Positions 5,049 to 7,224 of a stretch of 12,706 nt of DNA are shown piece by piece (positions within the stretch are counted from its first letter, which is position 1; every line of letters starts with the position of its first letter). The notes under the pieces are model-generated. The model saw nothing but the letters and a program-made list of their open reading frames with translations, was not told where the DNA came from and did not search any database. The DNA comes from Erythrobacter sp. CCH5-A1 (GTDB lineage Bacteria > Pseudomonadota > Alphaproteobacteria > Sphingomonadales > Sphingomonadaceae): contig NZ_LSKQ01000089.1 in the NCBI RefSeq assembly GCF_001557115.1, positions 1-12,706 of the forward strand, written 5' to 3'. Made by a program: the position numbers and the translations under genes.

Positions 5049-5052
<4 letters not shown>
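4420..5052 (+). CDS. trpF: phosphoribosylanthranilate isomerase
   Basis: TrpF performs the Amadori rearrangement of PRA to CdRP in tryptophan synthesis. The 210-residue barrel has the hallmark VKICGI with catalytic Cys9, [14 protein letters not shown] (29-42), VVQFHGAE (81-88), LLDAP with catalytic Asp132, and the phosphate-binding [11 protein letters not shown] (161-171) and DTSSGVE-x3-GIKD (184-197). The ATG at 4420 is chosen because the homologous protein begins there; the open frame upstream is only the shadow of the GNAT gene. AAGG (4408-4411) lies 8 nt before it. The stop overlaps the trpB start as ATGA. It is a stand-alone TrpF, not a TrpC-TrpF fusion. Confidence 0.97.
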
Positions 5053-6259
<1,207 letters not shown>

Positions 6260-6263
<4 letters not shown>

Positions 6264-6448
6264 ACAACGATTACGCGAGAGCGCTAGGCATCGGCCTGCT
6301 CCTCGCCGCCATTCCTCCCATCGCAGCCATTCTTGCGAGCTCTTTCGGCTTCGAGAGCACGAAGGCTGCTGAAGAGGTTGTGCTCGCCTCCGCTCTCTTT
6401 TTCGTCATGGGTTCACTCATGAAGCTCAAAACTCGGTTGCTCGGATGA
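6260..6448 (+). CDS. 62-aa predicted two-helix membrane protein between trpB and trpA
   Basis: I do not recognise this protein. The frame runs from TTG at 6260, which overlaps the trpB stop (TTGA), to a TGA overlapping the trpA ATG (ATGA). It therefore fills the gap with coupled junctions on both sides. G-rich sequence at 6248-6257 may act as ribosome-binding site. The product has two hydrophobic stretches (about 8-28, rich in Leu, Ile and Ala with a Pro-Pro at 19-20, and about 39-54), split by the polar FESTKAAEE. Lys55, Lys57 and Arg59 follow, suggesting both ends are cytoplasmic. G+C is about 56% by hand count, against roughly 63-67% in stretches of trpB and trpA on either side, hinting at separate origin. 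The TTG start is inferred. It could be non-coding spacer, but the double overlap and hydrophobic pattern argue otherwise. Confidence 0.6.
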
Positions 6449-7224
6449 CCCGCCTCACCACCACCTTCGCCCAGCCCCGCCCCGCGCTCGTCTGCTTCAT
6501 CACCGCGGGCGACGGCGACACGGCAGCCAATCTCGATGCGCTGGTGGAAGCCGGGGCGGATGTGATCGAGCTCGGCATGCCCTTCACCGATCCGATGGCC
6601 GATGGCCCCGCGATCCAGAGCGCCAATCTGCGCTCGCTCGGCGCGGGCACGACTACCGCGGACGTGCTGCGTTACTCAACCGAATTCCGCGCGCGCCACC
6701 CGCACGTGCCGCTGGTGCTGATGGGCTATGCCAACCCGATGGTCCGCCGCGGGCCCGAGTGGTTCGCCGGGGCTGCCGCAGCTGCGGGCGTTGACGGCGT
6801 CATTTGCGTCGACATTCCGCCCGAGGAGGACGACGCGCTCGGCCCGGCCCTGCGCGCGAAGGGCATCGCCCCGATCCGGCTCGCCACCCCGACAACCGAC
6901 GCCGCGCGCCTGCCGCAGGTGCTCGAGGGTTCGGAGGGCTTCCTCTACTACGTCTCAGTCGCCGGGATCACCGGCAAGCAGCAGGCGCAGATCGCCAGCA
7001 TCGAGGCGAACGTCGCGCGCATCAAGCAGTCGACCGACATTCCCGTAGCGGTCGGCTTCGGGGTGCGCACGCCCGAGCAGGCGGCGGAAATCGCCAAGGT
7101 TGCTGACGGCGTCGTGGTCGGCAGCGCGCTGGTCGAAATCTGCGGCCAGTATGGCGCCGAGGCTCCGCAGCACCTCAAGACCCTGACCAAGGCGCTCGCC
7201 GAGGCCGTGCACTCGGCCCGCTGA
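6445..7224 (+). CDS. trpA: tryptophan synthase alpha subunit
   Basis: TrpA cleaves indole-3-glycerol phosphate to indole and glyceraldehyde 3-phosphate and passes indole to TrpB. The 259-residue barrel carries the signature IELGMPFTDPMADGP with catalytic Glu42 and Asp53, matching E. coli Glu49 and Asp60. Loop 6 appears as SVAGITG (171-177). The phosphate site is GFGV (204-207) and GSA (226-228). The start overlaps the end of the small ORF by 4 nt, so its translation is probably coupled to that ORF instead of trpB. An 82-nt gap separates it from accD, the longest inside this operon. Confidence 0.98.
   Translation: MTRLTTTFAQPRPALVCFITAGDGDTAANLDALVEAGADVIELGMPFTDPMADGPAIQSANLRSLGAGTTTADVLRYSTEFRARHPHVPLVLMGYANPMVRRGPEWFAGAAAAAGVDGVICVDIPPEEDDALGPALRAKGIAPIRLATPTTDAARLPQVLEGSEGFLYYVSVAGITGKQQAQIASIEANVARIKQSTDIPVAVGFGVRTPEQAAEIAKVADGVVVGSALVEICGQYGAEAPQHLKTLTKALAEAVHSAR

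Follow-up and report, generated by a model that had tools for sequence, protein, structure and literature searches.

What is a small open reading frame (ORF) doing between trpB and trpA? In E. coli, as a passage of PMC10666635 describes it, coupling of trpA to trpB needs the stop-start overlap between the two genes, with re-initiation mostly gone once the distance reaches about 20-38 nt. In the window, by which we mean the whole 12,706-nt stretch of Erythrobacter sp. CCH5-A1 analysed here (contig NZ_LSKQ01000089.1), coupling would be common to both systems, but the overlap is split in two by a third gene. The initial annotation had described this gene as a 62-codon ORF overlapping its neighbors by 4 nt on each side, and the sequence agrees on both points: the ORF lies at 6260-6448 on the forward strand with a TTG start and a TGA stop, its first four letters (TTGA) falling on the trpB stop codon (6261-6263) and its last four (ATGA) on the trpA ATG (6445). 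The stop-start overlap of the ATGA type by which coupled gene pairs are recognized was found at both ends.

The features of the junction are:

5049..6263, + strand: trpB (tryptophan synthase beta), from the ORF list and tblastn (72-98% identity in 80 loci)
6254..6257, + strand: GGAG ribosome-binding-like motif inside the trpB 3' end, upstream of the cassette ORF and 2 nt from its TTG
6260..6263, + strand: TTGA overlap of the cassette start codon and the trpB stop codon, from the sequence
6260..6448, + strand: cassette ORF of 62 aa, predicted to form a two-helix membrane hairpin, from the ORF list, hydrophobicity and model
6281..6337, + strand: hydrophobic segment 1, residues 8-26 (Kyte-Doolittle mean 2.31)
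6365..6421, + strand: hydrophobic segment 2, residues 36-54, with a basic tail after it (Kyte-Doolittle mean 1.66)
6445..6448, + strand: ATGA overlap of the trpA start codon and the cassette stop codon, from the sequence
6445..7224, + strand: trpA (tryptophan synthase alpha), from the ORF list

The lower G+C content reported for the ORF was reproduced in 100-base windows (53-61%, against 64-75% in windows clear of the ORF). GC at codon positions 1, 2 and 3 was 0.58, 0.44 and 0.68 in the ORF compared to 0.68, 0.43 and 0.92 in trpB, an order that is coding-like, though weaker than in trpB. The frame stays open farther upstream into trpB (GTG at 6020), and we assigned the start to the TTG because of the overlap with trpB and the length of the 62-aa relative described below. 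Two hydrophobic stretches and two predicted helices support the likely two-helix hairpin that had been proposed, AlphaFold2 placing helices at residues 2-28 and 34-61 with a mean pLDDT of 76.5 from an alignment of two sequences only. These sequence features suggest that the ORF is likely a real small gene, in register with trpB and trpA, and that its product is probably a membrane protein.

Relatives of the ORF and occupants of the junction across the family

We searched for relatives of the window ORF among 5.8 billion proteins, with candidates sharing exact 5-residue words and a threshold of E 0.01, and recovered its own protein and one independent relative, nothing else. This relative, encoded on a 510-bp contig, is also 62 aa long and is 84% identical without indels. 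The 298 family genomes held no convincing relative, with four weak matches (E 0.003-0.009) located inside long frames. The ORF had no match above cut-off in Pfam or NCBIfam (best E 0.1 and 0.027, respectively, far below cut-off) and none at E 0.01 in scans of Pfam, PADLOC and PHROGs, while inverted repeats of at least 12 nt were absent from positions 6200-6500 of the window. The initial annotation would have let its proposal stand or fall with the frame being kept by close relatives. The outcome is mixed: the frame is kept in the 84% identical sequence but not in the 298 genomes, where close relatives of the window hold other ORFs at the junction, often likewise doubly overlapping. In one such relative, L004, the flanks are about 91-95% identical to those of the window and the insert is different. 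The L004 insert (L004:2486-2989) encodes a hydrophilic protein of 168 aa with no Pfam match at E 0.01, in which the stretch around IRYQIKARR may resemble a PD-(D/E)XK nuclease.

The junction was surveyed in Sphingomonadaceae using 80 TrpA loci, the best of 589 candidates, and 100 regions from among the best matches listed in a search in which trpA was found in 286 of the 298 family genomes. Including the window and two non-trp loci, this gave 183 sequences, 181 with a junction and 174 distinct after removal of exact duplicates, in a sample biased to the TrpA sequences nearest the window. The 174 distinct junctions fell into 46 compact ones (gap ≤4 nt) and 128 with inserts of 97-2247 nt, with none between. 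For comparison we used 51 loci (L185-L236 minus L213) drawn from the best 30 or fewer matches per search and presumed to lie outside the family by TrpA identity of at most 61%. Gaps in the 45 measurable loci were ≤20 nt in 31, 21-90 nt in 10 and >90 nt in 4, after five loci without trpB inside 1.5 kb and one without a start were left out. Two of the presumed outside-family loci, L227 and L231, have inserts that are ordinary-sized ORFs. By these comparisons the trpB-trpA junction is an insertion hotspot in the family sample, its occupants differing from one another and numbering in the dozens, and the proposed origin of the window ORF as an insertion that kept trpA in register gains support from the junction comparison across the family. 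A literature search with partial coverage found no report of an insert hotspot at trpB-trpA. A passage of PMC2395257 mentions genes of unknown function between trpB and trpA for Flavobacterium, for Burkholderia and for a single contig from the Sargasso Sea; they share the position of the window ORF, but appear in that passage as single cases, with no mention there of turnover, coupling or a membrane-protein pattern.

Occupants of the site have turned over repeatedly. A trpB tree with 171 loci required at least 33 changes between compact and insert states, and two pairs of loci (L010/L099 and L098/L110) are about 91-95% identical on both sides with different inserts between. The most similar pairs mostly agreed, which speaks against very fast exchange: among 11 pairs with trpB at least 92% alike, 8 had inserts of the same family, 2 of different families and 1 had one compact member, compared to 8, 18 and 7, plus 1 pair with both compact, among 34 pairs with trpB 90-92% alike. 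Using cluster labels of the present analysis (FAM numbers), the FAM1 tree (10 of 13 loci) rejected the trpB topology (p-AU 5e-7), as did the FAM3 tree (p-AU 0.006; nine loci with the 61-aa form, three longer members left out), and trpB rejected both family topologies in turn, comparisons that are weakened in that trpB itself may recombine. FAM1 was located at trpBA in all six genomes with a match and FAM3 in five of seven, the other two having it elsewhere. FAM3-type genes off trpBA (L308:4911-5108 and L307:4817-5065) lie near a similar-looking gene of ~475 codons, in differing order.

Of the 128 inserts, 12 contain stretches that match the trpA 5' end or trpB 3' end. In L010, L016, L021 and L036 these measure no more than 22-33 nt and may be chance or repeats; in L034, L083, L087, L093, L113, L140, L142 and L153 they measure 49-155 nt. 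L093 carries 155 nt of the trpA 5' end and 29 nt of the trpB 3' end between its two ORFs. The trpB fragment of L140 runs to spacer position 353, where it overlaps by 4 nt the following ORF, which begins at 350. Our reading is that such fragments may mark alleles that became stacked when trpB-cassette-trpA segments recombined. Cassettes would spread among strains by homologous recombination in the flanking trpB and trpA sequences, normally with one cassette replacing another and sometimes with two being stacked.

Register of the inserts, ribosome-binding signals and probable coupling

Inserts of at most 300 nt were mostly in register. A single ORF bridged 59 of these 62 short inserts, compared to 16.3 in dinucleotide shuffles of kept length, and exact double overlaps were found in 49 of 62 compared to 9.5 in the same shuffles. 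The gap was 1 mod 3 in 50 of 62, as expected because a double 4-nt overlap needs such a length. Most short cassettes have their first codon on the stop of trpB and their last on the start of trpA. Longer inserts were less regular, such that across all 128 a single bridging ORF was present in 73 and absent in 55. Except in stacked loci, the start of the DUF559 ORF lies 24-67 nt beyond the stop of trpB, which, together with the 55 inserts lacking a single bridge, indicates that strict coupling is not required everywhere.

Three other junctions of the same loci served as controls, with one script for all. Gaps >90 nt occurred at trpF-trpB in 50 of 155 loci, trpA-accD in 27 of 167 and accD-folC in 23 of 73, versus 128 of 174 at trpB-trpA. 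Within these long gaps, one-ORF bridges numbered 4/50, 5/27 and 6/23, respectively, versus 73/128, and exact double overlaps 0, 0 and 2 versus 45 (53 by a finer script). The fairest control is trpA-accD, because 85 of its 167 junctions have a -4 overlap. The trpF-trpB gaps measured 713-927 nt in 13 of 72 loci, perhaps one extra full-length gene. We preferred these neighboring junctions as controls to a comparison of two 400-kb stretches from G268 and G041, where 8 of 39 close co-directional ortholog junctions differed by >90 nt (five by >590 nt, three by 93-120 nt), so that insertions between neighboring genes are not rare in general.

Ribosome-binding signals were assessed by the strength of the anti-SD duplex. 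Medians were -7.3 kcal/mol upstream of compact trpA (n = 46) and -7.5 upstream of cassettes (n = 87), compared to -3.5 for trpA behind exact cassettes (n = 53) and -2.9 at random positions in the window. In the window itself, the values were -12.9 kcal/mol upstream of the ORF and -2.9 upstream of trpA, and GGAG, GAGG and AGGA were all absent from the 15 nt upstream of the trpA start. A four-base motif was present upstream of trpA in 19 of 46 compact junctions, upstream of 37 of 87 cassettes and, where the cassette is exact, upstream of trpA in 16 of 53 cases (random 12%), a contrast that is small. In compact junctions the trpA ribosome-binding signal sits in trpB, and where there is an insert the same signal serves the cassette. 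Ribosomes finishing trpB would re-initiate on the cassette and then on trpA, so that trpA translation would depend on the cassette and in-register inserts would be favored. In loci like the window, we infer from these signals that trpA is now read through the cassette, the loss of which would then be costly. Inserts have apparently been swapped while trpA stayed readable by the ribosome.

This arrangement resembles that of MIRU elements, which insert at a start codon and carry their own ORF coupled to the next gene with -4 nt spacing, according to a passage of PMC12548453. The ORF of the window insert would likewise couple at the start codon, where it has a -4 overlap. However, MIRU are short repeats at start codons, unlike the dozens of unrelated, mostly membrane-like genes at one trpBA site, and the window ORF had no second convincing copy in the 298 genomes, as a repeat family of the MIRU type at many start codons would have. 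At accD-folC, both L008 and L022 carry repeat-like ORFs (37-38 codons) that overlap their neighbors by exactly 4 nt on each side, as in MIRU-like coupling.

Products of the inserts and selection on them

A membrane-like ORF was present in 88 of the 128 inserts, a DUF559 ORF in 22, both in 4 and neither in 14. The bridging ORFs of short inserts contained a membrane-helix-like stretch in 54 of 59 cases, compared to 6.4 in nucleotide shuffles and to 1 and 0 of 59 in their other two frames; they formed 45 clusters, of which 41 were membrane-like. We estimated dN/dS by Nei-Gojobori, with several synonymous distances saturated, and obtained 0.05-0.31 among the ten FAM3 pairs nearest each other (no value for one of them), 0.07 in FAM6, FAM7 and FAM8, 0.13 in FAM1 and 0.32 in FAM18. 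Values were higher in two FAM4 pairs (0.58 and 0.83), in a pair of the non-membrane FAM15 (0.38) and in repeat-derived ORFs at the same site (FAM2 and FAM17, 0.49-0.72). FAM3 is strongly conserved, with a length of 61 aa in 15 of 17 database matches (the query's own record included), 20 of 62 alignment columns invariant across 19 sequences and a two-helix model with a mean pLDDT of 93.9. The recurrent membrane cassette families thus appear to be mostly under purifying selection, and the low dN/dS together with the conservation and confident model of FAM3 argues that some recurrent cassettes encode selected proteins.

These data bear on whether the inserts could be translational bridges only, that is, arbitrary DNA kept open for the sake of trpA coupling with an inert peptide as product. 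Some inserts look that way, given that repeat-like ORFs in L049, L074 and L080 also bridge exactly and that the repeat-derived FAM2 and FAM17 show the elevated dN/dS given above. Yet the excess of membrane-like bridging ORFs over shuffled sequence and over the other frames, the mostly low dN/dS of the membrane families and the invariant columns of FAM3 all run against an inert peptide, and we regard this explanation of the site as unlikely.

Most occupants were unrelated in sequence. The 191 insert ORFs called by a greedy script formed 93 phmmer clusters, 72 of them singletons. A Pfam scan of 68 representatives matched nine families at E 0.01 with one member each, of which DUF559, Cupin_2 and GFA were above the cut-off where cut-offs were seen, and BPD_transp_1, DUF5970 and ABC2_membrane_6 were weak matches (E 0.002-0.008) whose cut-offs were not seen. 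PADLOC matched insert ORFs only with three mREase_II models, one member each and presumably the DUF559 ORF, while PHROGs matched nine families, again with one member each. Some occupants are not membrane-like: the inserts of L119 (L119:2888-3217) and L128 form the hydrophilic FAM19 pair (109-110 aa), with a weak CdiI_2 immunity match in L119 (E 0.005, below cut-off). A FAM11 gene lies inside stacked trpBA inserts with membrane ORFs and DUF559 in L140, L153 and L154, its L153 member having a Pfam GFA match above cut-off.

Many short cassettes are nevertheless alike in length and two-helix plan, which would be expected if they were members of one ancient, very fast-evolving trp-associated membrane protein diverged beyond likeness. 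Profile extension did join FAM3, FAM6 and FAM7 and placed the window ORF at E 0.013-0.016, and an iterative profile search added up to 25 ORFs, but reversed or locally shuffled decoys scored as well as the extended matches, and a single divergent family was rejected. With plainly different occupants (DUF559, cupin, GFA), 46 of 174 junctions lacking an insert and different ORFs occurring in tandem inside single inserts, common ancestry of this kind is quite improbable. Chance open frames in random spacer are hardly credible, for although a 62-codon open frame alone is unremarkable and two nearby operon junctions also show a few bridges, the surplus of exact double overlaps and of gaps of 1 mod 3, and the relative of the same length, 84% identical and free of indels, point the other way; a chance origin of the site as a whole is unlikely.

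We consider instead that the window ORF is probably one allele of a locus-specific cassette site for small accessory genes, mostly encoding membrane proteins, that are spread by recombination and coupled to trpA. The initial annotation had suggested that the protein acts on tryptophan transport or membrane association; neither role found support. The presence of unrelated proteins in the same position, and of 46 junctions with no insert, would speak against a dedicated trp function, and any tryptophan-specific role was dropped. The cassette products would be accessory membrane proteins selected for their own activity. Strain-variable defense, exclusion or immunity is a weak guess at what that activity might be, made because it would explain the exchange of unrelated proteins.

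DUF559 occupants, flanking repeats and known mobile systems

The DUF559 ORF of L008 matched PF04480 with E 8.5e-37, and all full-length DUF559 ORFs at trpBA formed one cluster. Among the best 29 matches to the L008 protein in 298 genomes, 28 preceded trpA on its own strand at a distance of 0-1.3 kb, a count that includes G052 (538 nt from trpA), where the presence of trpB is not confirmed. None of the next 17 matches was just upstream of trpA; near kin are expected first in this ranking because the query came from a trpBA site. Elsewhere, DUF559 ORFs follow trpA at 945-980 nt, in the same orientation, at G288:C1:1460459-1460815, G253:C1:1637589-1637939 and G132:C91:43491-43817, probably just after accD, which is possibly a second preferred site. 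A single clade of the site copies was not rejected (p-AU 0.78). Comparing the DUF559 tree with trpB gave p-AU 4e-10, and the reverse comparison 2e-35, while DUF559 and trpB distances were correlated (Mantel r 0.60, none of 2000 permutations as high); tree conflict combined with correlated distances indicates that both inheritance and transfer of DUF559 are likely.

Inverted copies of a 36-nt palindromic repeat flank the DUF559 ORF at the site, with both present in 33 of 42 loci and at least one in 41 (duplicate fetches counted), and no such arms were found at the 22 off-site DUF559 copies fetched. The copy in G061, the exception among the best 29 matches, also adjoins the repeat. The repeat occurred in all 24 genomes that carry the trpBA element (handles up to G285) versus 25 of 254 that lack it. 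With the copies at the element set aside, at least 18 of the 24 still have it. Counts ranged from 0 to 15 per genome at ≤2 mismatches, one genome without the trpBA element carrying 15 copies. Both the repeat and a DUF559 ORF are absent from the window.

The layout is that of RAYT/REP systems, in which a gene constantly lies between two inverted REPs (in the part of PMC2817692 concerned), in that DUF559 at trpBA lies between inverted palindromic repeats that recur elsewhere in the genome. The enzyme, however, is DUF559 rather than a Y1/IS200-like transposase, and its position appears nearly fixed at trpBA. A literature search with partial coverage found no report of DUF559 with REP arms. The domain often occurs in Vsr-like PD-(D/E)XK endonucleases, according to a passage of PMC12907096, and a part of PMC6083498 defines intronless homing by free-standing homing endonucleases. 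Like these, DUF559 is a nuclease-like gene between conserved genes, at the same place in many hosts and with a conflicting tree; unlike them, it is absent from the homing families named in that part of PMC6083498, and the window ORF is no nuclease. The junction might be a place of homing-driven allele exchange, in which the DUF559 nuclease between REP-like repeats, a RAYT-like unit with another enzyme, would cut junctions that are empty or hold a different occupant, repair from donor DNA would swap the trpB-cassette-trpA segment, and membrane genes such as that of the window would ride along, locked in place by the dependence of trpA; we regard this scenario as rather unlikely.

The trpB-trpA pair is a textbook case of coupling, yet it is split in 128 of the 174 junctions sampled. 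The trpBA site offers a natural experiment in how a biosynthetic operon can take up new genes and stay intact. It also yields dozens of small membrane proteins, so far unstudied, that are recognized by where they lie and not by sequence, and it possibly houses a REP system in which a nuclease takes the part of the RAYT.
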